Part shown: in pieces, positions 902-53,333 of the stretch
Layout: every line of letters begins with the position of its first letter
Numbering within the stretch: the first letter of the stretch is position 1
From: Blastobasis lacticolella
Lineage: Eukaryota > Arthropoda > Insecta > Lepidoptera > Blastobasidae
DNA: 64,000 nucleotides
Direction of reading: 5' to 3'
NCBI GenBank assembly: GCA_905147135.1
Contig: LR990053.1
Coordinates: forward strand, 12,102,501 to 12,166,500
Translations under genes and position numbers: made by a program
Notes under the pieces: model-generated
Databases searched by the model: none
What the model was told of the DNA's origin: nothing
The model's input: only the letters and a program-made list of their open reading frames with translations

Positions 902-3900
902 AGGCGATAGAACGCAAACGCGCCGTGCGCTGGATCTGCGACTACATAACAGTACAATGCGGTCGACCCCCGCAAGCGCACTCCCGAGACTTGCACTCGT
1001 GCGTAGTCGCCGCCTACTCGTGCCTTGCCGCGTGGCTCTGCCCGGCGCTGTTGGCTGACCCGGACTGTCTGGCTACTTTACTAGAGGTGGTCGAGTTGGG
1101 GATCTCGGGCAGTAAGAGTCAGGGTGAGCGCTTAATACAACTATATTCAATTCAAGAGTCCATACATAGATTCATACTTACTCAAGCCCGTATCCGACAG
1201 GGGTAGACATAAACTATCGAGTGCCACAAGCTAAGATCCTGACACACCCTTTCTGTCTAAGCATAAGTTCCTAGAGGCCCTAAGTCTTGCAGTGGACTGT
1301 TATGGACTGTGATGATGATAAGGCCAATCACCACTTTCAGAATTCCTTTGCAGCTACAGCAACGTACAGTGTATTTGGTTAGCACCGTTACCCTAATTGA
1401 ATTGACAAGACAGAGTTCATTAGCTGTCGCTTAAGTCCAAAGAACTCATGCTTGACCAACGGCATTAAAAAAAAAATTAAATCTTTCATAAATCTTACAA
1501 CCTTTTAACAACGGCACAGGAATATGATTCTTAAGGTGGTAATGTACTTACTGTACATGTACACATAAATAACGTTACGTCACTTTCCAGTAGCACACAT
1601 TGTTCCACTCGCTGCGGTCCTGACAAACTCATTCGCTGCTACCATATTCATAAACCTTCAGCTTTCTATATCGTGGGTTTGTACCTTCTACATCCATCCG
1701 CCGACCCTCTATCCTACTATCAAAACAACGTTTTCCATGAATTGTTTAAACATAATCTAATTAATTAGACATAGTCATTAATTGATACCTTTATGTTCAT
1801 AGGGAAACCTGGTGAGCCACCCAAAATGAAGGATGAAAAGGAGCTGAAGCCAGTCTCAATGCGCGTGCGGGACGCGGCCGAATCGCTGCTCATGCTTATA
1901 TTGGATGAGGTGATTATTTTATTTTTTATTTTTAGCGGACTTTCTCTAGTCTGTGCCACGTGGAGAGAAAACGCGATCATGTTTTAAGGAAACACTTCGA
2001 AAACCTCTCCAGAACAAGATACAGAGACGAAGTTATTTAGTCGCCACTTGAGAACATTTGCATCCCATCGGCCATCGCTTCTGTGAGCTACATGTCATGT
2101 GGTAACCGTTCGGTAATTCCACCAGCTCCCCTACAGCCTCAGGCAGCGACTGAGAAGTAATTCTGCTTTCTCTGAGGAAGGCCCAAATCAAACATGAATG
2201 TCACCATCGCCAGGTCTCGACAGAGGTACGAGCCTGCCACTCATTAGGTGTACCTCCTTATTCTTATACCGTTGGGGAAGCGAGGTTGATCAAGGTCTTC
2301 CTCTGGGAACCCTGGGACTGGTTGAACAGTTTAGGGCTCCGTGACGGTATTTCATTGAATATCCCCATAATCAGGTCGGCGAAGACAACGAGTCCGGATG
2401 GTGTCGGCTCGACGAGCGCTGGCTGTCGGCGCTGGGCCACGGCCGGCTAAGGCACTACGTGGCGGACGGGAACATATTACTGTCCTTACTGGAGGAACCT
2501 CTAGCCAATAGCCAAGAGCCGCAGCCTACGCTTATCGGTGAGAGGGCCAAGTTGGAGAATGAAATTTTACTAATTGTGGAGTGTTCTTTTTGCCTTGGGA
2601 GGCGCACGGACGGATGGTCCACCTGATGGAATGCAGCCACCGTCGTCTAGGACATGTGCAACCAATGGGGGATTATCAATGCATTGTTGGGCTGCGGCAC
2701 TACGTAGCCGACGGGAACATACTGCTGTCGTTGCTGGAAGAGCCTCTAGCCAATAGCCAGGAGCCGCAGCCTACGCTTATCGGTGAGATAAGAGTTGTGG
2801 AGTGTCTTTTTTTTGCCCAGAGACGCGCACGGACGGATGGCCCACCTAATGGAAAGCAGCCACCGTCGTCTAGGACATCTGCAACCTAAAGGGATTATTT
2901 TTCGATTTTATAACAAACCCGTTCCCGTGAAAAATACATTGAATTTCGGGATAAATTGTAGCCTATATTTGCTATAAACTACTAAAATCCGTTTAATAGT
3001 TTATCGTGAATGTCTGGTCCACGTGGTCGGTATCTTGTATGCCTTAACGTGCCTTGCGCAGCCCCTGGTAGGTTTTTCGGTTAAAACGCATCGGCCTCTC
3101 AACCTGGCAGTGATAATCCGCTGCGGCTGGGGCCGGTTCGCGTGGTCGGTGTCGTGCCGGGGCGCGGCACCGTCTACCGTGCCTTCCGTCTCTATAGCGG
3201 CCCGTGGTGGCTTTCTAAAACTCACCCCCCTCCCATTCCTTAGTGATAATCCGCTGCGGCTGGGGCCGGTTCGCGTGGTCGGTGTCGTGCCGGGGCGCGG
3301 CACCGCCTACCGTGCCTTCCGTCTCTATAGCGGCCCGTGGTGGCTTTCTCAAACTCACCCCCCTCCCATCCCTTAGTGATAATCCGCTGCGGCTGGGGCC
3401 GGTTCGCGTGGTCGGTGTCGTGCCGGGGCGCGGCACCGCCTACCGTGCCTTCCGTCTCTATAGCGGCCCGTGGTGGCTTTCTCAAACTCACCCCCCTCCC
3501 ATCCCTTAGTGATAATCCGCTGCGGCTGGGGCCGGTTCGCGTGGTCGGTGTCGTGCCGGGGCGCGGCACCGCCTACCGTGCCTTCCGTCTATAGCGGCCC
3601 GTGATGGCTTTCTAAAACTCACCCCCCTCCCATCCCTTAGTGATAATCCGCTGCGGCTGGGGCCGGTTCGCGTGGTCGGTGTCGTGCCGGGGCGCGGCAC
3701 CGCCTACCGTGCCTTCCGTCTATAGCGGCCCGTGGTGGCTTTCTAAAACTCACTCCCCTCCCACCCCTTAGTGATAATCCGCTGCGGCTGGGGCCGGTTC
3801 GCGTGGTCGGTGTCGTGCCGGGGCGCGGCACCGCCTACCGTGCCTTCCGTCTATAGCGGCCCGTGGTGGCTTTCTAAAACTCACTCCCCTCCCACCCCTT

Positions 3901-6900
3901 AGTGATAATCCGCTGCGGCTGGGGCCGGTTCGCGTGGTCGGTGTCGTGCCGGGGCGCGGCACCGCCTACCGTGCCTTCCGTCTATAGCGGCCCGTGGTGG
4001 CTTTCTAAAACTCACTCCCCTCCCACCCCTCAGTGATAATCCGCTGCGGCTGGGGCCGGTTCGCGTGGTCGGTGTCGTGCCGGGGCGCGGCACCGCCTAC
4101 CGTGCCTTCCGTCTATAGCGGCCCGTGGTGGCTTTCTAAAACTCACTCCCCTCCCACCCCTTAGTGATAATCCGCTGCGGCTGGGGCCGGTTCGCGTGGT
4201 CGGTGTCGTGCCGGGGCGCGGCACCGCCTACCGTGCCTTCCGTCTATAGCGGCCCGTGGTGGCTTTCTAAAACTCACTCCCCTCCCACCCCTTAGTGATA
4301 ATCCGCTGCGGCTGGGGCCGGTTCGCGTGGTCGGTGTCGTGCCGGGGCGCGGCACCGCCTACCGTGCCTTCCGTCTATAGCGGCCCGTGGTGGCTTTCTA
4401 AAACTCACTCCCCTCCCACCCCTCAGTGATAATCCGCTGCGGCTGGGGCCGGTTCGCGTGGTCGGTGTCGTGCCGGGGCGCGGCACCGCCTACCGTGCCT
4501 TCCGTCTATAGCGGCCCGTGGTGGCTTTCTAAAACTCACTCCCCTCCCACCCCTTAGTGATAATCCGCTGCGGCTGGGGCCGGTTCGCGTGGTCGGTGTC
4601 GTGCCGGGGCGCGGCACCGCCTACCGTGCCTTCCGTCTATAGCGGCCCGTGGTGGCTTTCTAAAACTCACTCCCCTCCCACCCCTTAGTGATAATCCGCT
4701 GCGGCTGGGGCCGGTTCGCGTGGTCGGTGTCGTGCCGGGGCGCGGCACCGCCTACCGTGCCTTCCGTCTATAGCGGCCCGTGGTGGCTTTCTAAAACTCA
4801 CCCCCCTCCCACCCCTCAGTGATAATCCGCTGCGGCTGGGGCCGGTTCGCGTGGTCGGTGTCGTGCCGGGGCGCGGCACCGCCTACCGTGCCTTCCGTCT
4901 ATAGCGGCCCGTGGTGGCTTTCTAAAACTCACTCCCCTCCCACCCCGCAGTGATAATCCGCTGCGGCTGGGGCCGGTTCGCGTGGTCGGTGTCGTGCCGG
5001 GGCGCGGCACCGCCTACCGTGCCTTCCGTCTATAGCGGCCCGTGGTGGCTTTCTAAAACTCACTCCCCTCCCATCCCTTAGTGATAATCCGCTGCGGCTG
5101 GGGCCGGTTCGCGTGGTCGGTGTCGTGCCGGGGCGCGGCACCGCCTACCGTGCCTTCCGTCTATAGCGGCCCGTGGTGGCTTTCTAAAACTCACTCCCCT
5201 CCCACCCCTTAGTGATAATCCGCTGCGGCTGGGGCCGGTTCGCGTGGTCGGTGTCGTGTAGGGGCGCGGCACCGCCTACCGTGCCTTCCGTCTATAGCGG
5301 CCCGTGGTGGCTTTCTAAAACTCACTCCCCTCCCATCCCTTAGTGATAATCCGCTGCGGCTGGGGCCGGTTCGCGTGGTCGGTGTCGTGCCGGGGCGCGG
5401 CACCGCCTACCGTGCCTTCCGTCTATAGCGGCCCGTGGTGGCTTTCTAAAACTCACTCCCCTCCCACCCCTTAGTGATAATCCGCTGCGGCTGGGGCCGG
5501 TTCGCGTGGTCGGTGTCGTGTAGGGGCGCGGCACCGCCTACCGTGCCTTCCGTCTATAGCGGCCCGTGGTGGCTTTCTAAAACTCACTCCCCTCCCACCC
5601 CTTAGTGATAATCCGCTGCGGCTGGGGCCGGTTCGCGTGGTCGGTGTCGTGCCGGGGCGCGGCACCGCCTACCGTGCCTTCCGTCTATAGCGGCCCGTGG
5701 TGGCTTTCTAAAACTCACTCCCCTCCCATCCCTTAGTGATAATCCGCTGCGGCTGGGGCCGGTTCGCGTGGTCGGTGTCGTGCCGGGGCGCGGCACCGCC
5801 TACCGTGCCTTCCGTCTATAGCGGCCCGTGGTGGCTTTCTAAAACTCACTCCCCTCCCACCCCTTAGTGATAATCCGCTGCGGCTGGGGCCGGTTCGCGT
5901 GGTCGGTGTCGTGCCGGGGCGCGGCACCGCCTACCGTGCCTTCCGTCTATAGCGGCCCGTGGTGGCTTTCTAAAACTCACTCCCCTCCCACCCCTTAGTG
6001 ATAATCCGCTGCGGCTGGGGCCGGTTCGCGTGGTCGGTGTCGTGTAGGGGCGCGGCACCGCCTACCGTGCCTTCCGTCTATAGCGGCCCGAGGTGGCTTT
6101 CTAAAACTCACTCCCCTCCCATCCCTTAGTGATAATCCGCTGCGGCTGGGGCCGGTTCGCGTGGTCGGTGTCGTGCCGGGGCGCGGCACCGCCTACCGTG
6201 CCTTCCGTCTATAGCGGCCCGTGGTGGCTTTCTAAAACTCACTCCCCTCCCATCCCTTAGTGATAATCCGCTGCGGCTGGGGCCGGTTCGCGTGGTCGGT
6301 GTCGTGCCGGGGCGCGGCACCGCCTACCGTGCCTTCCGTCTATAGCGGCCCGAGGTGGCTTTCTAAAACTCACTACCCTCCCATCCCTCAGTGATAATCC
6401 TCTGCGGCTGGGGCCGGTTCGCGTGGTCGGTGTCGTGCCGGGGCGCGGCACCGCCTACCGTGCCTTCCGTCTATAGCGGCCCGTGGTGGCTTTCTAAAAC
6501 TCACTCCCCTCCCATCCCTTAGTGATAATCCGCTGCGGCTGGGGCCGGTTCGCGTGGTCGGTGTCGTGCCGGGGCGCGGCACCGCCTACCGTGCCTTCCG
6601 TCTATAGCGGCCCGAGGTGGCTTTCTAAAACTCACTACCCTCCCATCCCTCAGTGATAATCCTCTGCGGCTGGGGCCGGTTCGCGTGGTCGGTGTCGTGC
6701 CGGGGCGCGGCACCGCCTACCGTGCCTTCCGTCTATAGCGGCCCGTGGTGGCTTTCTAAAACTCACTCCCCTCCCATCCCTCAGTGATAATCCGCTGCGG
6801 CTGGGGCCGGTTCGCGTGGTCGGTGTCGTGCCGGGGCGCGGCACCGCCTACCGTGCCTTCCGTCTATAGCGGCCCGTGGTGGCTTTCTAAAACTCACTCC

Positions 6901-9900
6901 CCTCCCACCCCTTAGTGATAATCCGCTGCGGCTGGGGCCGGTTCGCGTGGTCGGTGTCGTGCCGGGGCGCGGCACCGCCTACCGTGCCTTCCGTCTATAG
7001 CGGCCCGTGGTGGCTTTCTAAAACTCACTCCCCTCCCATCCCTTAGTGATAATCCGCTGCGGCTGGGGCCGGTTCGCGTGGTCGGTGTCGTGCCGGGGCG
7101 CGGCACCGCCTACCGTGCCTTCCGTCTATAGCGGCCCGTGGTGGCTTTCTAAAACTCACTCCCCTCCCATCCCTTAGTGATAATCCGCTGCGGCTGGGGC
7201 CGGTTCGCGTGGTCGGTGTCGTGCCGGGGCGCGGCACCGCCTACCGTGCCTTCCGTCTATAGCGGCCCGAGGTGGCTTTCTAAAACTCACTACCCTCCCA
7301 TCCCTCAGTGATAATCCTCTGCGGCTGGGGCCGGTTCGCGTGGTCGGTGTCGTGCCGGGGCGCGGCACCGCCTACCGTGCCTTCCGTCTATAGCGGCCCG
7401 TGGTGGCTTTCTAAAACTCACTCCCCTCCCATCCCTCAGTGATAATCCGCTGCGGCTGGGGCCGGTTCGCGTGGTCGGTGTCGTGCCGGGGCGCGGCACC
7501 GCCTACCGTGCCTTCCGTCTATAGCGGCCCGTGGTGGCTTTCTAAAACTCACTCCCCTCCCATCCCTCAGTGATAATCCGCTGCGGCTGGGGCCGGTTCG
7601 CGTGGTCGGTGTCGTGCCGGGGCGCGGCACCGCCTACCGTGCCTTCCGTCTATAGCGGCCCGTGGTGGCTTTCTAAAACTCACTCCCCTCCCATCCCTTA
7701 GTGATAATCCGCTGCGGCTGGGGCCGGTTCGCGTGGTCGGTGTCGTGCCGGGGTGCGGCGCGCTCGGCGACCCGCGGCGGGGGCGCGGCGTGCGCGCGGC
7801 CCGTGGACATCGCGGAGCCGCCGCCGAGGCAGGAGCCGGTCTGCTTGCCGCTGCCGCCGGCGCCGGCCTGTGCTACGTATGTATTGGCTGAGTGGGAAAG
7901 TAGATCCCGATGTGTATATTTGAAGATGAAATTTAAGTACAAAACTGTATGTATACTATGGGCCTTATAAGAAAGCTCACTGTTACCCAAAGGGCAATGG
8001 AAAGGATTAGGCTCGGAGTCTCGGAGGCTCGAGAATCAGAAATAAGAAGATCCGCAAGCGAACCAAGGTCACCGATATACCGAATAGACCCAAATGGGGG
8101 ATTATCTAAAATAATTGAAATATCGATAAAAATTATCACATTCAAAATGAAATAAAATCGCATTAATATTTAAGAAAATACTATTTTGAATAATCTACTC
8201 CTTGGCTTTATTTTTTATAGTTTCAATTTGTTTACACTTTTGATCTTGAATTTCATCTCCGAATTTAAGTACTGTGCGCGCGCGAATTTATGTCCATCGG
8301 GCACGACCACTTAAATAATTCGAAAAGGAATTATTGAAGTCCCGATGGACATAAACGCGCGCGCTCTGTGATGGTTAACCACAAAACGACGCTAGGTTTG
8401 TTGCCAGACTTTTAAAATAATAACTCTTATGACTATGAAGAAATATACTGAAAGGAGGCACCTTAGTTAGTATATATCATATTGTTAATTAAATTTGCTA
8501 CCAAATTGAGTTATTTTTCCATTATTCGAGATACAAATCTAGAGTCGACTTTTTGTCCACCAGTGTAGTAAAGTCATTGGGTCTAGTCAAGATGCATATC
8601 GTTCCATAGCAACTCCACTACCACTGACGAATGGTGCCCATCGGCTACATTCAGCTGGCTTCGCAGCGTTCGCAGTACTGTGCAGATCTACGAGCGCTAG
8701 CCGAACGTAGCCAACAAGTTCCGATCTAATATCGCAATCAACAGTTTTCCAATAGGTATCTAAAGCATTCCTAACCACTCACTAGATGGCGCCCCGACAA
8801 TTTTGGTAATTGATAATCGCTTGAAATAGGTTTTTAGCAAACAGGATATAAACACTGGGTAGGTTGTATTGGATAATATTGTATTTGTCAATAGTTTTTA
8901 ACCATTTTAGAGGTTGTAATAATAATGGAACATAGTGCCAACTTCTATAAATATTTCTTTTTACACTTCGTTCAACCTTTAACAATTATGTTTATATTAA
9001 TAAACATTTTATTTTTAAGTTTAGTATTAGTTGGCAGCATGAAATCACTGCCACCATTATACAGATTATAAAAAGATTACCAAAATTGTAGGGGCGCCAT
9101 CTATTGATGCTTTTTGAAACCAACAATCAATACCTACTGGAAAACTCCTCATTAAACAGCTACAACGCCATTAGCATCTTTGCTAGACCCGGAATGTCCG
9201 CCGATTCTTTACTCTCTCACCCTGGCTCTTGGCCGTTTGGGCTCCTCTGGTAAAGGGTGGTATCTTTCCTCTATCATGGAATACCAAATTGGGTTCATAT
9301 TCCCACGTTTATCCGAACCTGTGTCTCTGTATGGTTTTGTTTTCTATAGACAAGTTAAGTCATAAACGCGGAAGGGAAAATAATTGGTAATTGTAAGCCG
9401 CTACCGTCCGCGCCTCCTTGTACAAACTAGTATACGCGTTTATAAACTGTTAATGTACTCTATGTAGATAGTGAATACAAAGTGCCTATCTCTTGCCACA
9501 TGTGGTACCAGCAGTAAGCTTGATGTCGTCCTCCCATCTTTTCATTTACCTATTTGTATGAATAGGCAACAGCCTTAACGGTGCTAGGGTTGTCCCTAAG
9601 ACATCAGTTCTCATACACTCTCAACAACCACGCTGGATATTCTACACTTGTTGGTTTAAATTAAATTAATGTGCTACTTTCTAAGTCATCTTACCATTAT
9701 CTCTCCAACATTAATTACACAACCATGGTCTTATTACAGTGACTCGGCGATCCCAAGTTTAGACGCCGTGTTGAGACAACTGAACGACCCGGAAGCACCG
9801 ACGTTGTTTAAATTGCTGGAACAACAAGCAGCTATAGAAAAACGTGTTAGGGAGAGCGAAGATAACGTGGTGAGTATGGCAGATAAGGATGGCCCTTGAT

Positions 9901-12900
9901 AGACTAAATTCTCTCAGTTAGCAATAACGTAATTTTGTTTCCTCACAGGTACCAGAAGAATGCGTCCCTCCAGAGCCGGTGACTGAATTCCAAACGGCAC
10001 GATTGTTTTTGTCACACTTTGGATATCTCAACATTGGAGGCGACAAAAAGGTATATTCACATAATTTTAATTTCTTTTCCACATAGCAGATACAACTATG
10101 ACATCGATGTGGGTGCGATGTTTTCTGTAACGCTAATATCTCCAATCCGACTGCCAGGTGTATTGTGACGACAATCTGCACTCGATGGACGCTACCGCAA
10201 TTCGAATTTAGATATTCCACTAGATGGCGCTGCTAAAACGTTAGGTCTGTTGTCAAAGTCATGGCTATTGGTATCAGAAGTTAAGTTTATAAGGAGGAAA
10301 AGTTTGTATGTTTGAGAGATTCTGTGTCGGGGGTAATATCCGAGGCTGCTGAACAGATTTCGAGAATTCTTTCTCTAATAGGAAGCTACATCATTCCCAA
10401 GTGACATAGGATGCTTTTTATAACGGAAAAATAATGGGGTCCCGCGTGATAATTTAATGGTTATAGACGAACTGTGCGCGGGTGCACACTGCGTGGGACG
10501 GCCAGTAGACAATAATGCTGAGGCGGATCCAATTTGGTCCGAAGACGCATCGCCCTGCTTCCTTATACTTTCCGTTAATTTAAAGTTTTTTATGTATTAT
10601 TGGACCCAATAAATATACGTCTAAGTCTATATCTACGTCTATGTCAAAATGTCATGAAGGCCTTCCGCCTTACACATATTTGTTACCTACAGGTGGAGAC
10701 TTATAATTGGTTTTCTATTAAGTGCATAAGATATCCATTGTAATATAATAGCTGTAAGTCTTCCGAAGAGGTTGGCAGACTCATACTCTTATTTATATGA
10801 TGATGATGAAGTCTTCCGAAAATAAATAAAATATTACTGACCATCCCCGCAACAGGCCAGCGTCCCCCGCCTAGTAGCCCTAGACGAGTCAGCGCCCGGT
10901 TTCGCCACTGCCCTTCGACGAGTGGACGCTTGCGGCGCCCGCGGTGCGGTCACCGCCCACGTGTTCTGCGTTCGCGCCGGGCAGACGTCGGCCGCTAGTA
11001 TCGTCGCCAACGCGAACAGTGTTGAGACAGTGCCCGCCGGGTTCATACGGATGCTGAGGGGGTATGTAGTGAGGTTTTTGGTCATGGAGCTATGGAGGGT
11101 CTAGTTTAGACTAACTCCTTGGCGGGCTATTTAGGGCGAATGCCGGTGCTGTCACCGCCCACGTGTTCTGCGTTCGCGCCGGGCAGACGTCGGCCGCTAG
11201 TATCGTTGCCAACGCGAATAGTGTTGAGACAGTGCCCGCCGGGTTCATACGGATGCTGAGGGGGTATGTAGTTATGGAGCTATGGAGGGTCTAGACGTCT
11301 ATATACCCTTAGCGACCTATTTATGCAGGTATAGAGCTGAGTACTTTTGCGTGCGCGCGGGCCAGACGTCGGCCGCTAGTATCGTCGCCAACGCGAACAG
11401 TATCGACACCATGCCCGCCGGGTTCATTCGAATGCTGAGGGGGTATGTAGCACTGTTATTGTCATGGAGCTATGGGCGGTCTAATCAAGTCTATCTAGGG
11501 TTTGGAGGGTCTAGACGGCTATCTACTCTTTAGTCGAGCTATTTATGCAGGTAGATTATAAGGTAATCTTGAAACGGGGTCCGGTGCCATCACCGCCCAC
11601 GTGGTTTGCGTTCGCGCGGGTCAGACATCGGCTGCTAGTATTGTCGCTAACGCGAATAGTGTCGACACCGTGCCCGCCGGGTTCATACGTATGCTGAGGG
11701 GGTATGTAGCGCGGTTTATGGTCGGGGAGCTGTGAAGGGTCTAGCCTATCTACCCTTAGCGGGCTATTCATGCAGGTAGGATAGTAGGCTGGGTACTCTT
11801 GAAACGGCGCCCGGCTTCGCCTCTGCCCTTAGACGATGCTAAGGGGGTATCTTAGCGCGGGTTTTGGTTGCAGCTATGGAGGTAAATAATAGGGTAATCT
11901 TGAAGCGGGTTCCGGTGCCGTCACCGCCAACGTGTTCTGCGTTCGCGCCGGGCAGACGCCGGGTACACAAACAGTGTTGAGACAGTGCCCGCCGGGTTCA
12001 TGCGGATGCTAAGGAGCTTAAGAAGTGTCAGATCCCAGACATTTTCTGAGTTATGTACATTGGTTGAACAGTAACCGATGCTCTTGTTGTGAGTAATTAT
12101 ATTTTTTATACCACTAAGGTGTCAAGCAATCATGTGGCAAAGAATCCTGATGGTAAACAGTTACCGTAGCCTACAGACGTTTGCAATACTACGTTTCGGG
12201 CACTAATTGTGCTTGCCTATGTCAGTGGCTGAGACGTTCGAGTTTGACATTCAAGATTGGCTGTCTAGACTCTTAACAAGTGTCTAGGGTCTTAACAAGT
12301 ATGAGCTTGTCACTTGACCGGCCAGTTTAAAGTGGTTTCGTCCACTCGCATCGCAGTTCACGACTTGCGGGCATTTCATCATCATCTGCCTGCTCTTATC
12401 CCACTAGTAGGGGTCGGCACAACATCTCTCTTCTATTCAACCCTATAACTAGTCATCTCTGTACTCAATCCTTGCGCCCGCATGTCATCAATATTAGGCT
12501 ATGCTTGTACTTATTCTTATTTTTGTTGCTCTTATTTTATACTAGTGGACCCGGCGCGACTTCGTTCACGTACACCTACCCACCCTCTACCCATTTTTCT
12601 TGCTTATAAACCTTCCTCTTGAATCACTCTATCTATTAAAAAAAACCGCATCAAAATCCGTTTCGTAGTTTCAAAGATTTAAGCATACAAAGGGACATAG
12701 GGACAGAGAAAGCGACTTTGTTTTATACTATGTAGTGATGTTTAATATTGTTTACATAATTTAGGCTTAAGCTGTAATGTAAACATTATCCCTAAATAAA
12801 TAAATCATTCACACAGTTCATCCATCTTTTCGTTAGGTGAGCTTTTACTGAAGTATCCGTTCATATTCATATTCATCGCCTTCTACCCTCCTCCACCCAG

Positions 12901-15900
12901 GGTCCTATCGACCTCGATAGGCCTATCACGAATGATGCACGCTTACTTGCCGGTGGCTCTTTGGGCGTGCGCACATTTTGACACCCACAAATCCGGTTGT
13001 CCATAACCACTCTCCCTTAACGGGCTGACGTTACAACACGCTCTACTATCCCGTCGGCCATCTCTCATCCTCCTTCCCTCCCTTATTTATCTGCTTCATA
13101 TTCATCGCCTTGTTGTGTCAAAGCGTTGTGTCCGCTCCATTGTTTACCTATGTAAACGAAATGCAGCAGCGACGCTTGGGTGATGCCCCTGGTATTGCAA
13201 ATGTCTATAGGCTGCGGTGACTGCTTACCATCAGGCAAGCCGGAAGCTTGTTTGTCACCTTGGTGGTATAAAAGATAATCTAACATGGGTATACCATCGC
13301 AGTCTCGGCCAACCGGTCCGCGTGCGAGGCCACCCCGGGTGGAGCGGCCACGTGTCGACGAGCTACGACGCGCGGCCGGAGTACGGGCCGCCCGCGCCCG
13401 CGCCGCCGCCCGCAGCGGACCCCTCACCCGCTATCTACGACGGACGGGAACAGGTACCACGAGACGACGGCAGCGCTGCCAGGGGGCTAAAAAGGCCACA
13501 TTAGCGGTTCATAATGTGATACATAATCATTTGTCACAAATTTATCTGCTGTTTTGACATGACAATTCAAAATGGCGTCACTTAGTTCCAGTATTGGCCT
13601 ACGGATCAGATAAGTTTGTGGCACCCTAATATGAAACGCTGATGGGGCCTTTTTAGACCCCGTGGTCTCTTTGAGTGTTAGGCGCTAGATCAGTTAAAAA
13701 AGCGCTAGATTCCGCCAAACAAGTATGAAAAGGCGCTAAATTTTTGCTATTAGAAGTTACATATTACTATCCACAACCATACCTTATGTTTGCCTATCGA
13801 ATAAATTAATTAGTTGGCTTTTATTAGAGCGGCACAAACAGGAGCTCGTTGCGCTCGCTCAATCAGTGGTTACGTACCTGTACCATACTCACTCCAGGTC
13901 TATTGAGCCAAAATTTAACATATTTTGGTATATTTAACAACTATTTCGACAAAGCGTTAGGAGTCAAATATTAAGAATGGAAGTTGATTACCCTGAAATT
14001 CCGGTAGATCTAGCGCCGAAAGCGCTAAAATGGCAACTGGAGGACGAATGACATGTAGATAAATCTATATAATTAAGTTAGAACCACTGGCTAACCGAAG
14101 GTACTTTGGCTCCCTGTGTGTGTTCTATCGGCTGTACAATGGGGAGTGTTCCGAGGAACTTTTCGATCTGGTGCCCATAGCATAATTCCGCCATCGCACG
14201 GCTGGGTACTCATCCCAACTACGTGGACCCTCGGTCACCACGCCAAGGTTTCAAAGAATGTTTCTCGCTCGTTCGATTCGGATTTAGAATGAGCTCCCAG
14301 CCACAGTGTTTCCTTTGGACTATGACATGGGATCGTTCAACAGGTATATTAGAGGTCTCTTCAGAGGCAGGCAACGCATTGGTGACTCCCCTGGTGTTGC
14401 TGATGTCCATAGGCGGCGGTGACCACTTTCCATCAGGTGGCCCGCATGCCTGTTTATCTACCGATAAACACAAAAAAAAAAAACAATTTGCCAAGTTCAT
14501 GTTCGCGCATGAGACATTTTATTGTAGCACTTACATGTTTTTTTATTCTACAGGTGCTGTATTGGTCGGATTCAATCAACGAGATTGCGTTTGTCGTACC
14601 TTCCGGATTCGAAATAGCTGACTTGGACCAAAACGACAGCCTCAAATCTGATACGGACGGGTCTTGTTTATCCAACAGGTAAATACACTATATTCTTTAC
14701 GCTCATCTTTTATCAAAGTAAGGTAATATATCATAGTATAAAACAAAGTCGGTTCCCGCTGTCTGATCTGTATATATTATCTTTTAAACTTCGCAACGGA
14801 TTTTAATGCGATTTTCAACAATAGATAGCGTCCTCTCAACCACAATATTTATCAAGCACACACATGTTCATACACATGCATCACTTCATCATCATCGTAT
14901 TGGCGTTATATCCCAGTTGTCCCTCCGCGCGGCACGCGAAGGCTCAGGATCCGCTACTCCTGGCCCACCCCGCTCGGTCTCTGCATCCTTGATGATGAGC
15001 TTATTTGGCCGCATGTCATTCTTAACAACGTCAAGCCATGCCTTCTTGTGCCATGCAAAGCTTACTCGTCTAAATATACCCCCATTACCCTTACAGGGGC
15101 TCAGACAAAGCCGCGGGCTCCTACTGGGACGTCTCTAGCGGCGGGTCGGGCGCGTCCGTGGGCTACGAGCGCTCCGTCAGCGAGTCTGAACGAGAGCGAG
15201 CGAGACACAGCCTCAATGAGAAAGTGCGAGCGCTCTCGTTGGAGTTGGACAAGCAGCCGAATACTGGGCTTACGGGTAAAGTGCGATACGGTTTCATTTA
15301 TTCATAGGTAGAGCTCGTCTAATTTAAAATGACGCGCCCCACTATCGCATTAACGCACACAAGCAAGTTTATAATATGGACACAATACATATACAAATGC
15401 CGTTGTAATTGGTCATTCAGTTGCCGGTAAGATTCAAACGTCGGGGCACGCGCCGTTCATTGGCTCCCACACAGATGAAGTGTCGTTATTAATATTTGCA
15501 CTCACACATCGAAATCAACTAACTAAGTAGTAGGGCGCGTCATCTTAGACTAGACGAGCTCTACTTATAATAACCACACTGCAGGTCTAGCCAAGATGCA
15601 ATTTTAGGAATCGATAGAAGATCAAATAGGAAAATGTATTAGATTTGACGTAAGTAATAGAAAAGTGACATTGATTGCTAAATGGCATATACTGGCGATA
15701 TATTATTTGTAAATTGGCCTCTACTTATCATCATCATCCGGGGAGCGCCGCCCAGAGGTTCGGACAAAGCCGCGGGCTCCTACTGGGACGTCTCGAGCGG
15801 CGGGTTGGGCGCGTCCGTGGGCTACGAACGCAGCGTCAGGGAGTCCTAGCGGGAGCGTGCGAGGCAAGCCTCAATGAGAAAGTGTGAGCGCTCTCGTTGG

Positions 15901-18106
15901 AGTTGGACAAGCAGCCGAATACCGTGCTGACGGGTATAGTGGATTTACACCCGTATATACGGTTTCATTTATTCTGGTCTAGGCAATATGCATTCTTTTT
16001 TCACGTTCGCACTGACAGTAGAATAAATGGGAAGATAAAGGGGTTTTGATTTTTCATCAGCATCTTGACGCCGATTGTGCCGCCGATCCCGATAAGCGAA
16101 TTGCAACTTAATGTGCTCCGCATTCGACTTAAATTGGCGAAGCGAAATAAAACAATTATTTTTATATTGCTTTTCCAATTTCAGCATATTAAGTTGCTTT
16201 GACTCTCCACTCATCATCATCATCCATGTGGTCAATATCGGCTTCCACCAGGGTCCGCTTTCCTCTTTGACTTCTCTATTATTCGAGTGTTTTACAGTGT
16301 CCATTTGGATGCGAAATAGGTAATTTTACTTACAGAATGCTGGAACATTACTAGAGGTATGAGTATTTTATAAACTGAAAGTCATACTTTAAAAATATTG
16401 ACGCTGAACACAGCTACATATTGTGGTAAAGTCCCTTATATTATGTTGTTTTCTCACAGGTAGTGGAAGACGGAATAGAGATTTTACGACAAAGATACTC
16501 ATCGTATGGCTAGAAGACTTCGAGGATCATTTGAATTTGCCAATCGGTAAGTTTCATTAACTGCGGCATACTTTCAGTAAGATCATCGAAATGTCTACGC
16601 AAAAACGGATCCGTGTAGCACGAGTCCGTCGATATCGGGCCCGACGTCCAAGTCCCGAATCAATGGGGTGACATGGTCGGACGTCGACTGCGCATCCGAA
16701 TTAATCCAAAAGCTACTTTATTTTGTACTACGTAAGGATGAGTATCGAATGCAACTGGCGGTTGGTCGGCTCCAGCAAATCGGAGAGCCTGTATATTTTT
16801 ATTAGGTCTACTAAAGTAGATGTTTCACAAGATAGAAGTTAATTAACAAAGCTCGTATGGTAGAAAACAGTGTACATCCTAGTATTACTGTTATAAAACC
16901 ACCCAGCTACCCACAGACGAGCTCAACCGACGAGCCAACTGTACGGACGACGTAGTCAAACGTCGACCGCGCATCGGAATCAATCCGAAATCAACTCTAT
17001 TTTGTACTTCATAAGGATCAGCATCGACTGTACCATAAAAAAATCTAATATAACCACCCGCCACCCCCGCAGACGACCTCCTCCGCTACTGCGAAACGGG
17101 CCAACCGTGGCGTCGTCACGAAGCCGCCGCGATATGCGTCTCCCAGCGTCGCAGCGGGCTCGTTCGTGTTCGCGCGCCGCTCGCCGCGCCCGCCGCGCTC
17201 GCCGACGGCGCGCAGATAGCGCCCAGGCTGCTGCCGGCGTGCCTGAGGCGGGCGGCCATCGATGTGGCGCGGCGGACGTGGCTCAACACCGACCTGTGAG
17301 TCTGACGTTATTGACAGCCAGTAGCTAGTGTGCATCGCCACCAATACCACCGACAATGCCGACATCATCGACATTCATGACACTACCGACATTAGTGACA
17401 CCACCTACATTATTGACACCACCGACATTACTGACACCACCGACATTACTGACACCATCGACATTAGTGACACCACCGACATTAGTGACACCACCTACAT
17501 TACTGACACCACCGACATTAGTGACACCACCTACATTATTGACACCACCGACATTACTGACACCACCGACATCAGTGACACCACACGTACTACCGACAGC
17601 CTGAAAAAATGACCACGGTGACGAACATTATCCCGTAACTTCGGAACTGCGCTTTACCATCTTGCTCGGCCCTTTCGGTTTGATGGATTGCCAATACAAC
17701 ACCCACAATAGCGGAAAACGCAGCGCAGGTAGGCCTCCCACAAGGTGGACCGACGACCTGGTAAAGATCGCAGGTACCAGCTGGATGCGGAAGGCACAGG
17801 ACCGGCCTTTGTGGAGATCTCTTCCGGAGGCCTATGCCCAGCAGCTGGCGTCTTTCGGCTGATATGATGATGATGATGACCCACAATAGGACACCACTGA
17901 TACTGATCTCATAACCAATAACTGCCACCTTTATAATGCCTAAACCGGACACTTCATATACGTTTTGTACTCAAATGGCGTTTTGTTACAGATATCAACC
18001 ACCCCACGTTAGAAGAAGACACCTAATTCAAGAATTGGCGCAGCAGTACAAGAAGGACCTCTCTGAACCAGAGCTACTGGAATCGCTGTTCCAAACACCA
18101 GCGTAA
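902..18106 (+). CDS. RALGAPB: Ral GTPase-activating protein subunit beta, C-terminal 660 residues (13 exons, 5' partial)
   Basis: Non-catalytic partner of the RalGAP alpha subunits; the heterodimer switches off RalA/RalB GTPases in the cytoplasm. Exons: 902-1123, 1803-1909, 2375-2537, 7702-7876, 9740-9869, 9949-10050, 10856-11061, 13303-13453, 14554-14678, 15097-15275, 16460-16546, 17073-17295, 17992-18106. Every junction is GT-AG, every phase matches and the joined frame is open to TAA. Recognition rests on conserved runs in the family's order: [10 protein letters not shown] and SRDLHS (exon 1), [12 protein letters not shown] (2), [15 protein letters not shown] (6), [13 protein letters not shown] (8), [10 protein letters not shown] (9), [16 protein letters not shown] (11), GLVRVRAPL (12) and [20 protein letters not shown] (13). 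The length fits the C-terminal part of a roughly 1500-residue protein. The first exon may start at 902 or 904. Introns hold partial copies of exons 3, 4, 7 and 10, plus transposon debris. Exons 4, 7, 8 and 12 are very GC-rich compared with neighbouring introns and genes. Confidence 0.93.
1255..1325 (+). repeat. RTE-type LINE tail remnant
   Basis: GCAGTGGACTGTTATGGACT followed by GATGATGATAA resembles the 3' end of lepidopteran RTE-like elements; the same motif recurs at 62050. It lies in RALGAPB intron 1. Confidence 0.5.
2447..2893 (+). repeat. Tandem duplication of the 3' part of RALGAPB exon 3 plus downstream intron
   Basis: Unit 1 is about 2447-2655 (exon 3 from codon LRHYVADGN to the donor at 2538, then intron). 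Unit 2 is about 2691-2893 and repeats the exon tail ([18 protein letters not shown], then [11 protein letters not shown]), the donor GGTGAGA and the following intron with the CGCACGGACGGATGG segment. The two exon copies differ mostly at third codon positions (for example gtggcg/gtagcc), so the encoded peptide is unchanged. Copy 2 lacks the first part of the exon and I see no acceptor in front of it, so it is not a complete alternative exon. Confidence 0.85.
3110..7758 (+). repeat. 131-133 bp minisatellite made from the RALGAPB intron 3/exon 4 junction (36 units including the real exon)
   Basis: Units start at the g of GTGATAATCCGC at 3110, 3243, 3376 and 3509 (133 bp spacing), then every 131 bp from 3640 to 7701, the last being the true exon 4 start. 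The 2-bp difference is CTCTATAG against CTATAG. Each unit holds a C-rich pyrimidine tract, an acceptor (CCTTAG or CCTCAG), about 57 nt identical or nearly so to the 5' end of exon 4, and about 70 nt of spacer. Most variation is in a few recurring positions (ACCCC/ATCCC, TTAG/CTCAG, CCGGGG/TAGGGG, GTGGTGG/GAGGTGG). A degraded trace of the unit is visible near 3015-3060. Confidence 0.95.
8275..8365. repeat. Imperfect palindrome, MITE-like
   Basis: Arms GCGCGCG..TTTATGTCCATCGGG and its reverse complement surround a second small inverted repeat (AATAATTC/GAATTATT). The whole could form a hairpin. It lies in RALGAPB intron 4. Confidence 0.7.
8743..9150 (+). mobile_element. 410-bp MITE family A, copy 1
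   Basis: Terminal inverted repeats AGTTTTCCAATAGGTAT and ATACCTACTGGAAAACT frame a non-coding AT-rich core. The same element occurs at 44146-44563 (most complete), 53335-53752 (reverse) and split at 31656/35582. This copy has lost the outer AATGAGG at its left end. It lies in RALGAPB intron 4. Confidence 0.85.
10285..10460 (+). mobile_element. Helitron fragment
   Basis: The run from AAGGAGGAAAAGTTTGTATG through GAATTCTTTCTCTAATAGGA and GTGACATAGGATG matches the internal layout of the Helitron-type element at 45764. Both element ends are missing. It lies in RALGAPB intron 6. Confidence 0.55.
11127..12020 (+). repeat. Tandem partial copies of RALGAPB exon 7 and its following intron
   Basis: After real exon 7 (10856-11061) come about five partial copies of its 3' half: about 11139-11263, 11335-11442, 11578-11701, a short internally deleted one at 11805-11846, and a decayed one at 11908-12015. 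Copies 2 to 4 keep the reading frame ([17 protein letters not shown], then [10 protein letters not shown]) and the donor GGTATGTAG at the right place. Intron text such as ATGGAGCTATGGAGGGTCTAG and TATTTATGCAGGTA is repeated with them, so the unit spans exon end plus intron. I see no acceptor placed to make any copy a free-standing exon. Confidence 0.9.
12630..12745 (+). repeat. Dispersed transposon tail fragment
   Basis: CCGCATCAAAATCCGTTTCG, followed by AGATTTAAGCATACA and a GCGACTTTGTTTTATACTAT end, is repeated in reverse orientation near 14742-14820. I regard it as the end of a common lepidopteran element; the class is uncertain. Confidence 0.5.
13165..13275 (+). repeat. LINE/SINE-type 3' tail fragment
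   Basis: The motif CTGCTTACCATCAGGCAAGC, preceded by CCCTGGTATTGC and ATGTCTATAGGC, recurs in diverged form at 14383-14460 (CCACTTTCCATCAGGTGGCC), next to an A-rich run. Similar short tails sit in the duplicated exon 3 region near 2600 and 2830. These are typical interspersed remnants in moth introns. Confidence 0.5.
14383..14482 (+). repeat. LINE/SINE-type 3' tail fragment with A-rich end
   Basis: Same tail family as at 13165, ending in a run of 12 A residues at about 14471-14482. It lies 70 bp upstream of RALGAPB exon 9. Confidence 0.5.
14742..14820 (-). repeat. Dispersed transposon tail fragment, reverse copy
   Basis: Reverse-complement relative of the 12630-12745 repeat (AAAACAAAGTCG, then CGCAACGGATTTTAATGCG). 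It begins about 60 bp downstream of RALGAPB exon 9. Confidence 0.5.
15755..15935 (+). pseudogene. Degenerate tandem copy of RALGAPB exon 10
   Basis: GGACAAAGCCGCGGGCTCCT and following text copy exon 10 (15097-15275) over nearly its full length, 656 bp downstream. The copy has CAGAGG where the true acceptor CAGGGG stands, a TAG where the exon has AGC-GAG-like codons (GAGTCCTAG), indels around GAGGCAAGCC, and a weakened donor (GGTATAG against GGTAAAG). It cannot serve as a coding exon. Confidence 0.88.
17345..17600 (+). repeat. Minisatellite of 18-bp GACACCACCGACATTACT-type units
   Basis: About 14 tandem units alternating GACACCACCGACATTACT and GACACCACCTACATTAGT follow 50 bp after the donor of RALGAPB exon 12. 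Because 18 is a multiple of three, several frames stay open, but the tract sits between a good donor at 17296 and the acceptor at 17990-17991 and is intronic. Confidence 0.9.
17640..17880 (+). mobile_element. RTE-clade LINE 3' fragment
   Basis: Encodes the C-terminal tail typical of RTE reverse transcriptases ([11 protein letters not shown], then [14 protein letters not shown] and EAYAQQ) and ends in a GATGATGATGATGA run. A 5'-truncated insertion in RALGAPB intron 12; a relative is at 31420. Confidence 0.85.
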
Positions 18107-48116: not shown

Positions 48117-49404
48117 ATTCCCAAAATTGAGTGGTTTTATTTTTAACATTATCTTCTACTATTATTCTAGGCATTGAGTAGAATAATACACTTGTATCTG
48201 CTTCAGTATTTTAATTTATAAACATATTTGTTTCACGTACGTAGTCCTTTCTTTCTTTACAAATCTCCTCTTCCAAAAATTCCTGAAAGCTAACTACGCG
48301 CTCATTTTTGTTGCTTAATTGGCCGCATCAGGATTTTTTATAAGTGGTGGCTTGCTATTGGCAATAACGCAGCACATGTGCATAATCGCATCAAGATACG
48401 GTAAGAGTGAAATAGGAATACATTTCAAAATATTGCAGAGTTTTATCCTTTGAATAGCCCGTTCGACATGTATTCTAACTGAAGCGATTTTGTACGTTTC
48501 ATCTATTTCGGAATTTGTAAACTGTGGATCGAACGCGAACGGAGGTATCACCAAGAGGGCATTGCGTTTGAGCAGTTCAGATTTTATCTGAGGGAAACCT
48601 TTGTCAGCTAAAACCGTATCCCCTGGTTCTATGCACGATAAAAGTCCACAGTCATTCGTTATAAAACTATCTGTAGTTCTTCCGCCATACCCTTTCGATA
48701 ATTTACAAACGAAACCATCGGGCGTAATAGCGATCAAATATTTGACGGTAAAACGTGACTTGTAGTTAGAGTACATGAGAACGCGTTGTTCCACAGTAGG
48801 GGGGGTTTCAGTAAATATTTCCGTGCAATCGATTATGCATCTGCAATTCGGATATTTTTTTAAACCGACCGGTAAATTTCTTTTGATGCTTTCTCTCGAT
48901 GGCCAAAAAATCCAAGTTTTTGTCTTCTCAGTCAACGTAGTCAAGATTTCGAAGAAGATTTGAGAAGCAGTTGATTCGTGTATCTTAAAAAAGCAAGCTA
49001 GACCAGAAAAAGAAATACCCAATTTAATTTTCATTAAAAAAAGTAATAATCTATTTTGTTTATTCAATACCCGGTAGTAAGCTGGTTGACCATCTGTTTT
49101 CACGCTAATCAAATTGAGCAACACATTGAAAAATATTAGTGAAACCCCGCCTAACTGCAACATAGTTTTGTCTGATCCAATATCAGAGAATCCTGAGAAA
49201 CCGTTATGAAAAATATCGTCAGGACCACATGACTTGTTGGCAACGGTTTTAAGCTCTTTCACTATGATTCGCTCGTTTTTATTTGGCTTTCTGATGTAAA
49301 TGTTCGTCTGCGTGGAAGCTTCATTTTTGTCGTTATTCCAACTCCAGAAAGTATTCCCTTCTGCACTCGCTCCTTCGTTGTCACACGGATCAGTTTGACA
49401 AGCA
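47309..49404 (+). repeat. Left arm of 2.1-kb near-identical inverted duplication
   Basis: Matches the reverse complement of 51241-53333 over its whole length. The two arms differ by a 3-bp indel (one Ile codon of the transposase) and a few substitutions that I can see (one Asn/Ile change in the transposase, one base near 48292). This arm sits in the fuller element copy. Confidence 0.95.
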
Positions 49405-50078
49405 ATGCTCGTACTGCCAGCTTCCGTCGGAGTTTCATTTAATCCTATAATTAGACAAAATCATAGAAAATTCATTTAAAACAACGCAACATGAAACAAT
49501 TGTACATTTCCGAAACTTGAAATCGCCTAACATTTACAGATACTTTTAAAATATATTTTCAATTTTTGATCTTACCCATTTCAATGTCACTTGCGATATT
49601 TTCCTTTTCTTCCGGTTTTGCAGCTGTTGATGAGCCCATTCTTTCTTTTCTTTTCAGAAATCGTTCGTATCTAGCTAAGGCCAGTTGTGAATTCTCTCTT
49701 TTTTTGTACACAGCGGGGAAAATTGTCGGCACATACGCTGGGCTGTTTTCGACGTTGGATTGCTTGCCTCCAACAAAATGAGCACTGCAGATTCGAGTGT
49801 TTTCACTCGGGTGCCATGTCTTGTTATCTAATGTGCTAATAAAAATATAACATACAATACACGTACAGAAAATTTGGATCTTGCATATTTTCGATACGTT
49901 CCTGGTATCAAGTCATCATAATAATAATATTTACTTACATTCTTCTGACAGCTTTTATCCACTTATTTCTTTTTTCAACTTCCCAACTCCGTTTCGGAAA
50001 CGAATAAAAAGTTAATTCACGATTCCGAGATTGGGAATTTTTACACCCCACAACACAACAGTACCTTGTACCACCCAT
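48315..50078 (-). CDS. ISL2EU/Harbinger-type transposase, THAP-DDE_Tnp_4, 509 residues (3 exons)
   Basis: A domesticated or mobile DDE transposase acting in the nucleus on its own element ends. Minus-strand exons: 50078-49939, 49835-49576 and 49444-48315; GT-AG sites, matching phases, exactly 510 codons including stop. Exons 1-2 give an N-terminal C2CH THAP DNA-binding finger: CCVVGCKNSQSRN, then WIKAVRR, TWHPSENTRICSAHF and AYVPTIFP. Exon 3 encodes the DDE_Tnp_4 domain: CIIDCTEIFTE (first Asp), KYLIAITPDGFVCKLSKGYG, DTVLADKGFPQIK (second Asp) and RIHVERAIQRIK (Glu). No stop or frameshift interrupts it, unlike the accompanying YqaJ gene. The C-terminal 316 codons or so recur in the inverted copy at 51241. 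Assignment to ISL2EU rests on the THAP + DDE_Tnp_4 + SWIM/YqaJ combination. Confidence 0.85.
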
Positions 50079-50208
50079 TTTTTTCTTGTTTCAGAGCACT
50101 TTTTAATGCATTCAACTGGTTGAATAATAACGTAAACCGTACAGCTGATCGCACGCAAAACGCCCACGAGTTGCCTAAATCTGCCACAACGCCGCGCCAC
50201 TAGCGTTA

Positions 50209-50623
50209 AGCGCGCTCCACATGTGGACAGTTCCGCGGGAACACGAGAATGTAGAGGGAGTATTCGTGTAGTCCCGTGCATGTTTGGCATGTCTCGCCTA
50301 TTTCATAGACTAAGTAGAGATAGTTTGTTGTCGTCTCAGTTCGATCGATTTTATATTTATATTTCTAGCGTTTTTTCCCGTAACAGGTTCGGGGTACACT
50401 TGACCATGATCCAGGATATTAGTAGATCAAGTAATTACAGTAGAGAAGCTGCCATCACTTCTGTGACCCTGTTTACAGTAGATTACCGATATTACACCCA
50501 TGAATCGATAAAATGTCGCGCGTTTTGACACCACCACATCCCTTATAGGCGAGAATGTAGAGGATCGACCAAAGTCCCGGCAAAAGTTTCGCCGGAAGTT
50601 TCGGCGAACATGTGGAGCGCGCT
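50209..50623 (+). mobile_element. 415-bp MITE family B, copy 1
   Basis: Termini AGCGCGCTCCACATGTGGAC and GGCGAACATGTGGAGCGCGCT are inverted repeats. Flanked on both sides by TTA (50206-50208 and 50624-50626), a 3-bp target duplication as used by PIF/Harbinger elements. The core includes GACCATGATCCAGGATATTA. Non-coding. Confidence 0.9.
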
Positions 50624-50626
50624 TTA

Positions 50627-51041
50627 AGCGCGCTCCACATGTGGACAGTTCCGCGGGAACACGAGAATGTAGAGGTAGTATTCGTGTAGTCCCGTGCATA
50701 TTTGGCATGACTCGCCTATTTCATAGACTAAGTAGAGATAGTTTGTTGTCGTCTTGATTCGATCGATTTTATATTAATATTCCGAGCGCTTTTTCCCGTA
50801 ACAGGTTCGGAATACACTTGACCATGATCCAGGATATTAGTAAATCAAGTAATTACAGTAGAGCAGCTGCCATCACCTCTGTGACCCTGTTTACAGTAGA
50901 TTAGCGATATTACACCGATGAATCGATAAAATGTCGCGCGTTTTGACACCACCACATCCCTAATAGGCGAGAATGTAGAGGGTCTACCAAAGTCCCGGCA
51001 AAAGTTTCGCCGCAAGTTTCGGCGAACATGTGGAGCGCGCT
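50627..51041 (+). mobile_element. 415-bp MITE family B, copy 2
   Basis: Same termini and length as copy 1. It starts directly after the TTA that follows copy 1, so the two sit head to tail sharing one target triplet. The right flank is TAA. Confidence 0.9.
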
Positions 51042-51137
51042 TAATATTATATGGTATTATAGAGTATTTTTAATTGGTATTTGATTGTAAAACTATCGTA
51101 ATTAATAATAAATAACATTGCCAAATAAATATATAAA

Positions 51138-51242
51138 CATTTCTGAACGAACGTAAGATATTCCTAAATTTTAGTTAATTAGTACTAAATGTACTTCAAG
51201 ATTTAACATCGCTTAGGAATATCTTACGTTCGTTCAGAAATG
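51138..51242. repeat. Hairpin with perfect 29-bp arms
   Basis: CATTTCTGAACGAACGTAAG and nine further bases at 51138-51166 are exactly complementary in reverse to 51214-51242, with a 47-nt loop. The right arm ends at the first bases of the inverted ISL2EU copy (51241). Confidence 0.9.
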
Positions 51243-53333
51243 CTTGTCAAACTGATCCGTGTGACAACGAAGGAGCGAGTGCAGAAGGGAATACTTTCTG
51301 GAGTTGGAATAACGACAAAAATGAAGCTTCCACGCAGACGAACATTTACATCAGAAAGCCAAATAAAAACGAGCGAATCATAGTGAAAGAGCTTAAAACC
51401 GTTGCCAACAAGTCATGTGGTCCTGACGATATTTTTCATATCGGTTTCTCAGGATTCTCTGATATTGGATCAGACAAAACTATGTTGCAGTTAGGCGGGG
51501 TTTCACTAATATTTTTCAATGTGTTGCTCAATTTGATTAGCGTGAAAACAGATGGTCAACCAGCTTACTACCGGGTATTGAATAAACAAAATAGATTATT
51601 ACTTTTTTTAATGAAAATTAAATTGGGTATTTCTTTTTCTGGTCTAGCTTGCTTTTTTAAGATACACGAATCAACTGCTTCTCAAATCTTCTTCGAAATC
51701 TTGACTACGTTGACTGAGAAGACAAAAACTTGGATTTTTTGGCCATCGAGAGAAAGCATCAAAAGAAATTTACCGGTCGGTTTAAAAAAATATCCGAATT
51801 GCAGATGCATAATCGATTGCACGGAAATATTTACTGAAACCCCCCCTACTGTGGAACAACGCGTTCTCATGTACTCTAACTACAAGTCACGTTTTACCGT
51901 CAAATATTTGATCGCTATTACGCCCGATGGTTTCGTTTGTAAATTATCGAAAGGGTATGGCGGAAGAACTACAGATAGTTTTATAACGAATGACTGTGGA
52001 CTTTTATCGTGCATAGAACCAGGGGATACGGTTTTAGCTGACAAAGGTTTCCCTCAGATAAAATCTGAACTGCTCAAACGCAATGCCCTCTTGGTGATAC
52101 CTCCGTTCGCGTTCGATCCACAGTTTACAAATTCCGAAATAGATGAAACGTACAAAATCGCTTCAGTTAGAATACATGTCGAACGGGCTATTCAAAGGAT
52201 AAAACTCTGCAATATTTTGAAATGTATTCCTATTTCACTCTTACCGTATCTTGATGCGATTATGCACATGTGCTGCGTTATTGCCAATAGCAAGCCACCG
52301 CTAAAAAATCCTGATGCGGCCAATTAAGCAATAAAAATGAGCGCGTAGTTGGCTTTCAGGAATTTTTGGAAGAGGAGATTTGTAAAGAAAGAAAGGACTA
52401 CGTACGTGAAACAAATATGTTTATAAATTAAAATACTGAAGCAGATACAAGTGTATTATTCTACTCAATGCCTAGAATAATAGTAGAAGATAATGTTAAA
52501 AATAAAACCACTCAATTTTGGGAATTAACTCTTCCAAAAAATGTTCACCCTTTCAACTATGACCTCTACGTTATCGTGACTCGAGTAAACAAAGAAATGA
52601 CACTTATTAACGTTGAGTATATACATTGATACCTGAATTTGTGTATAATATTTGTCGCTTTTCTTCAAATAAATTTTATTATTGTCGTCTATTTCCAAAT
52701 ACGGGACATTCGAAACTTTATCGTCGCGGTTCACGATTTGCTGATTCTTACAGGCATTTGATTTCCAATAAAGTTGATTCGCTTAATATTATTCCGTCGG
52801 GGCTCGTGGCCATAAACGGTAGGGTTATAAATATTTATAATCAATCCAACTGAAGTTACTTTTAAGCCAGTTTGTTCTTCGAAACACTTTCTTCATAGCC
52901 TCCTTCGCTTTCTTGCATGCGGCTTGGTTGCAAGACCATACTTCATGGCTTCTGTCATCTAGCCATCAAATTTATTCTTTTTAAATTGTGCCGCCAAAGA
53001 TTCGAATGCGTCTCGCCTCGTTTTTATGCGGTGAGCCTTGCTGGAGCATGTTACCCGTTTTGCTCTTTCTTCAAACCATTCGAAGCAATCGGATTGACTT
53101 TCCGATAGTACGCTGTTGCTCAAACACTCACTCCTGCTTGCTACAATCTTTCTTCATATTTCGATCGCAGCTCACGAGGACACGTATACTTTTGAAGTCG
53201 CATTTTCAAATTATCGATCTCTTGTAATCTATAAATTTAGTCCATAATTGTATATGCTTCTTCTTTTCTTTTTTTCTCTTCTTCTCTTGCAATTTCTCTT
53301 AGCAGTTCAATATCTTTCTCCGATTCTATGTAC
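51241..53333. repeat. Right arm of the inverted duplication: truncated ISL2EU copy
   Basis: Reverse complement of 47309-49404, lacking the THAP exons, the SWIM-coding start and both element ends. It is cut at the right by MITE A copy 4 (junction at 53333/53334). The YqaJ region here (53330-52525, minus strand) carries the same stops and frameshifts as the other arm, so that gene was already broken before the duplication. Confidence 0.92.
51383..52327 (+). pseudogene. Truncated ISL2EU transposase (DDE part only, 314 codons open)
   Basis: Same protein as the third exon of the 48315-50078 gene, with one substitution (Asn to Ile in DIFHxGFSG) and a one-residue deletion in the C-terminal PPLIKNPD. 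All three acidic positions are kept. The two THAP exons are absent because the duplication stops at 51241, so no DNA-binding domain can be encoded here. Confidence 0.85.

Follow-up and report, generated by a model that had tools for sequence, protein, structure and literature searches.

Thirty-five tandem copies of an intron-exon border precede exon 4 of RALGAPB in the moth Blastobasis lacticolella and resemble the mirage minisatellites of lancelets

Analysis of a 64,000-nucleotide stretch of the genome of the moth Blastobasis lacticolella (assembly GCA_905147135.1, contig LR990053.1, positions 12,102,501 to 12,166,500; the window) revealed a tandem array made of an intron-exon border of RALGAPB, the gene for ral GTPase-activating protein subunit beta. 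Thirteen modelled exons of this gene, from 902 to 18106, form one frame of 661 codons whose sole stop stands at its end, in the last exon (17992..18106, + strand, placed by the joined frame). The joined translation matches lepidopteran entries named ral GTPase-activating protein subunit beta (E 0), and the peptide encoded by exons c and d matches the solved human RALGAP subunit beta (9qwp_B, E 3.4e-4). The exon upstream of the array, exon c (2375..2537, + strand), was delimited by frame, splice sites and the 9qwp_B alignment; its donor GT lies at 2538, where the initial annotation had put it. The exon downstream, the real exon 4 (exon d in the model; 7702..7876, + strand), is 175 nucleotides (nt) long, ends at the donor GTATGT at 7877 and joins exons c and e in frame. 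Exon d is conserved in at least 45 aligned lepidopteran entries, exon c and the border between the two are likewise conserved in Lepidoptera, and a search of the assembly placed both exons at this locus only (38 matches among 39 candidates). The intact frame and the single location rule out a processed or dead RALGAPB copy.

The array occupies 3111..7701 on the + strand. Tandem Repeats Finder reported 35.5 copies with a period of 131 and 98% matches at 3109-7759, and counting AG|TGATAATCC gave 36 acceptors from 3111 to 7702, corresponding to 35 array units and the real exon 4. Each unit consists of an exon-4-like part of 58 nt, a spacer, a branch-like site, a pyrimidine tract and AG; 32 units measure 131 bp, and units 1-3 measure 133 bp. 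Compared with the first 58 nt of the real exon 4, the exon-like part is identical at 57 positions in 29 units, at 56 in three and at 55 in three. These results bear out the initial annotation, which had described 35 tandem units directly upstream of exon 4 that lack its 3' end: the units stop after 58 nt of the exon. In the assembly (577 Mb in 45 contigs, with the window in contig C14), at least 36 occurrences of the unit were found, all within the array, whose length is read from one assembly sequence.

Comparison of the units revealed 13 variable columns and 15 unit types, with a mean inter-unit difference of 1.8%. The types follow one another in a non-periodic order, neighbouring units have variants in common, and blocks of three units recur in 6 windows, compared with 1.6 expected by shuffling (P 0.03). 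The number of types, the shared variants of neighbours and the repeated blocks fit a stepwise duplication of blocks. Immediately upstream, at 3010..3110 (+ strand), global alignment to the unit revealed a decayed older unit ("unit 0"), the CAG of which serves as the acceptor of decoy 1. Unit 0 has 74 identities to the unit in 122 columns and an alignment score of -10, compared with a mean of -75 (standard deviation 12, best -30) for 500 dinucleotide shuffles and with -54 to -133 for 12 other RALGAPB acceptor regions. When flank and unit were aligned locally, the score (24) did not exceed that of the best shuffle (25) and lacked significance; the global, in-register test was significant. The array thus diverges at its edges, with unit 0 decayed and units 1-3 of 133 bp, and its inner units are homogenised; decay of unit 0 and the longer first units are as expected for an array edge. 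The array probably began as a tandem duplication of the intron end plus the adjoining 58 nt of exon 4, which would then have expanded to 35 units, most likely through slippage or unequal exchange, and undergone partial homogenisation; the true junction was left as its downstream border. An assembly artefact, in which copy number was inflated or the array arose from misjoined reads, is hardly credible. Such arrays have been misassembled before, as reported for the draft sequence of the lancelet globin gene BflGb6, but the fifteen unit types in non-periodic order, the decayed unit at one edge and the similar junction copies in RALGAPB and in another gene (see below) all argue against it here.

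The copies carry putative 3' splice sites that are complete in sequence, as proposed in the initial annotation. The pyrimidine share at positions -20 to -4 is 0.88 in 31 of the 36 acceptors, 0.82 in four and 0.65 in decoy 1, which draws its upstream part from the decayed unit 0; eleven other scored RALGAPB acceptors have shares of 0.47-0.76. A branch-like CTAAA lies upstream of 32 of the 35 decoy acceptors. The statement that the spacer holds no good donor holds for 31 of the 35 units and fails for four. The 12 donors of RALGAPB itself score 3.8-9.3 on a general donor matrix that is not tailored to moths. On the same scale, a typical unit reaches 3.0 with its best GT, and GAG|GTGGCT, present in the four exceptional units, scores 5.0. 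Two other features of the units were considered. Recursive (ratchet) splice sites consist of an acceptor followed immediately by a donor, AG|GTRAG; the units read AG|TGATAA, which rules them out. No stable RNA structure was found for the unit (z -0.37; 67 of 200 shuffles fold equally well), and this result rules out such a structure as the selector of the acceptor.

When exon c is joined to any of the 35 decoys and read on to the exon-4 donor, a premature stop is reached in exon 4, 175-4500 nt upstream of the next junction. An mRNA with such an early stop is a target of nonsense-mediated decay, and decoy-spliced RALGAPB mRNA would therefore be one. The decoys are probably near-silent, with splicing almost exclusively to 7702. 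The most likely way to the real acceptor, judged from the anatomy of the locus and the lancelet reports cited below, is exon definition, which the initial annotation had also offered. U1 bound at the single exon-4 donor (7877) would stabilise U2AF and U2 at the nearest upstream acceptor, which gives the 175-nt exon. Exons beginning at decoys would measure 306 to 4766 nt, so that the decoys would lose to 7702; the unique 3' part and the donor would define exon 4 starting at its 3' side, and the acceptor closest to them would win. Rare decoy transcripts would be removed by nonsense-mediated decay, and with leakage removed in this way we infer that the array is almost neutral and can expand freely. 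Several properties of the locus weigh against this account. The base at -3 is C, giving the usual CAG, in 11 of the 35 decoys and T (TAG) at the real acceptor; judged on these signals, there are stronger acceptors among the 36 than the real one. Among the gene's 12 donors, that of the real exon 4 has the lowest score (3.8), which is awkward for strong exon definition, and the score of GAG|GTGGCT exceeds those of the two weakest own donors (3.8 and 4.3). The nearest decoy would form an exon of an ordinary length, 306 nt.

Tandem repeats of intron-exon borders occur in the lancelet genes for Adh, troponin C (TnC), globin and PGBD5 (PMC3087553, PMC3902484), and the array is thus not of an unheard-of kind; the initial annotation had noted that minisatellites rarely carry a functional 3' splice site together with coding sequence. 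The troponin C repeats and the similar PGBD5 repeats are described in PMC3902484. The Adh, TnC and globin repeats are named "mirages" and are reported without aberrant mRNA (PMC3087553, PMC3902484), which speaks against noisy splicing at the moth locus. Alternatively, the decoys may be used appreciably as poison acceptors, with array length or splicing factors setting the amount of RALGAPB mRNA that escapes decay. The sequence-complete sites (11 of 35 with the better CAG), the premature stop from each decoy and the weak donor of the real exon 4 would agree with such a role. It is nevertheless unlikely: the lancelet precedents are reported without aberrant mRNA, and a conserved switch is not suggested by an array that looks young and variable, in a gene whose copied exons differ between lepidopteran gene models. 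The locus provides a natural test of 3' splice-site choice, with 36 near-identical acceptors in one intron and the rest of the exon after the last of them only. If 7702 alone is used, exon definition, or an equally strong rule, would be demonstrated in vivo over a step of 131 nt; if decoys are used too, array length would act as a dosage dial.

Analysis of the other RALGAPB exons revealed further partial copies, which, like unit 0, the TAG at the real acceptor and the stops caused by the decoys, go beyond the initial annotation. The 3' part of exon c is repeated together with its donor at 2690..2788 (+ strand, 89% identity over 99 nt), in a duplication that reaches into the intron (2445-2676 / 2690-2898). 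Of 93 positions compared with exon c, 11 are changed in this copy, and 11 of 11 differences are synonymous (P about 4e-5 to 3e-4 under an unconstrained copy); no in-frame acceptor for it was seen by eye. Exon g (10856..11061, + strand) is followed by four partial copies of its 3' part at 11144..12014 (+ strand; starting at 11144, 11345, 11582 and 11913). In the first three, the frame is open, the donor GTATGTAG is retained and the changes are conservative. Synonymous changes account for 3/3 differences in the nearest copy and for 12/15 (P 0.003-0.007) and 8/11 (P 0.03-0.06) in two others; the exon g copies are not mutually independent. The frame of the last copy is broken, with two synonymous and three nonsynonymous changes classed. 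Exon j (15097..15275, + strand, from the gene model) has a decayed copy of the whole exon at 15757..15933 (+ strand, 89% identical) with 18 differences, of which 7 are nonsynonymous and 11 synonymous (P 0.06-0.14). Two more RALGAPB exons with adjoining partial copies lie upstream of the window on contig C14, at window coordinates of about -17203 to -16974 and -14536 to -14201; in the copy of one of them, 6 of 10 differences are synonymous. Within the introns of RALGAPB, an imperfect palindrome of 89 nt (8276-8364, in the intron after exon 4) and an 18-bp minisatellite of 13 copies (17346-17584) were also observed.

The mainly synonymous differences between exons c and g and their copies (11/11; 3/3; 8/11; 12/15) would be expected if the copies were true alternative exons, that is, tandem exon duplications spliced in a mutually exclusive manner. 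This explanation is highly unlikely for the locus, where the exon 4 units are truncated, out of frame and, in 31 of 35, without a donor of their own, and where the copies of exons c and g lack the 5' part, that of exon c also lacking an in-frame acceptor by eye. Tandem exon duplication involves complete in-frame exons; here the units are truncated and 35/35 lead to premature stops. A tentative and rather doubtful hypothesis is that GC-rich exon borders are recurrent hot spots of junction-spanning duplication in this moth, perhaps in Lepidoptera, and that copies rotate into the working border, a role that any decoy could gain through contraction or unequal exchange, and so come under intermittent purifying selection. 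Rotation of this kind would account for the exclusively synonymous differences of the exon c copy and for the 12/15 of an exon g copy. The copies of exon j (11/18) and of the upstream exon (6/10) and the broken last copy of exon g are less clear or speak against rotation. The exon part of the array weighs against it as well: with 3 of 58 columns variable in the exon part and 10 of 73 in the rest (P 0.14), it shows no significant lack of variation, and purifying selection on it was rejected.

The frequency of exon copies was compared with that in control pieces. A local same-strand copy within 1.5 kb was found for 6 of 22 RALGAPB pieces (9 stretches located with a human sequence and 13 modelled exons, without the less conserved upstream exons) and for 1 of 40 control pieces (Fisher P 0.006). 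The controls comprised 10 PF02145 matches and 30 PF00271 matches, those given loci among 140; all are pieces matched by Pfam rather than entire exons, and L022 and L023 are near-identical genes. RALGAPB pieces with a copy have a higher GC content (0.62-0.79; Mann-Whitney P 0.01). Both sets pooled, copies accompany 7 of 15 pieces with a GC content of at least 0.60 and 0 of 47 below it, with only 4 of the 40 controls as GC-rich as the affected exons. The sole control with a copy belongs to a Rap_GAP gene on contig C20, in which the last ~33 nt of the piece and the donor are repeated 111 bp further on. Three direct local duplicates lie in the 20 kb around this piece (L052 7672-7831, 3712-3876 and 318-562), and each of them spans a donor similar to GTGAG or GTAAG. 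They form a biased sample, as the gene was chosen for its control copy; one of the three duplicated exons is supported by Pfam and two by an open frame only. Around four other Rap_GAP loci (40 kb) and in the remaining 44 kb of the window, the local duplicates found have GC contents of 0.31-0.53, in surroundings where GC-rich sequence is scarce. A duplication inside an exon would disrupt the protein and disappear, and one at a border is tolerated if splicing copes, so the pattern may partly reflect survivorship; the link to GC-rich exons suggests a mutational hot spot in addition.

Repeats were also found in RALGAPB protein records of other Lepidoptera. The best 120 of 1311 matches were searched for exact internal repeats by k-mers, and 52 of these records, with 36 named species, were taken as lepidopteran (two placed by rank). 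Internal tandem repeats are present in seven of them (P0001, P0019, P0030, P0033, P0040, P0046 and P0049), from 6 of the 36 named species: Mythimna separata, Plutella xylostella (two records), Achroia grisella, Aphomia sociella, Parnassius apollo and Scirpophaga incertulas. The Achroia grisella record contains seven copies of 40 residues. No internal repeats were found in the 68 of the best 120 records outside the lepidopteran set, 10 of them without a species name. The repeats hit different exons and consist, by eye, mostly of 3' parts of exons and in some cases of translated intron. The records are gene predictions from which the underlying DNA is deduced, and those with repeats probably represent arrays annotated as coding. 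This is a warning for annotation, with some lepidopteran RALGAPB records probably containing array copies read as coding sequence.

Elsewhere in the window, two near-identical long frames in opposite orientation (48315-49460, - strand, and 51179-52327, + strand), transposase-like by eye, flank a tandem pair of 418-bp repeats at 50206-51042.

Among known systems, introns that arose by tandem duplication or from minisatellite arrays were reportedly described by Zhuo in 2007 and by Gao and Lynch in 2009. Novel Drosophila introns are attributed to tandem duplication in PMC2891723. As in such duplication-born introns, a short internal tandem duplication at the moth locus carries splice signals; unlike them, it has created no new intron position, and the border between exons c and d is kept. 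The variable number tandem repeat (VNTR) of ABCA7 is said to lie beside, not across, a splice site, whereas the moth unit contains an acceptor and coding sequence. Like the moth array, the ABCA7 VNTR is an intronic tandem repeat near an exon, and PMC5954066 describes it as altering splicing.

The closest match is with the lancelet mirages. Each sequence feature tested for a mirage minisatellite was found: tandem units, a unit that spans the border and includes its splice signals, a true border that is kept in an intact gene, and diverged edges. As described in lancelets for Adh3, troponin C, BflGb6 and BflGb9, border-spanning units with splice signals stand beside an intact border, both 5' and 3' borders can be hit, and edge units diverge. 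The unit of BflGb6 likewise joins the 3' end of an intron to the 5' part of an exon (exon 2 in BflGb6). No account of mirages in Lepidoptera or other insects was found in searches of the open-licence literature. Unlike the lancelet cases, the moth copies affect several exons of one gene and were found in GC-rich exon pieces only, and 35 units compare with the 6 and 3 given for the two BflGb6 haplotypes (PMC3087553, PMC3902484). The lepidopteran host, a unit number above the BflGb6 figures and the recurrence in other exons of the same gene are thus new, and they extend to insects a phenomenon described in lancelets.

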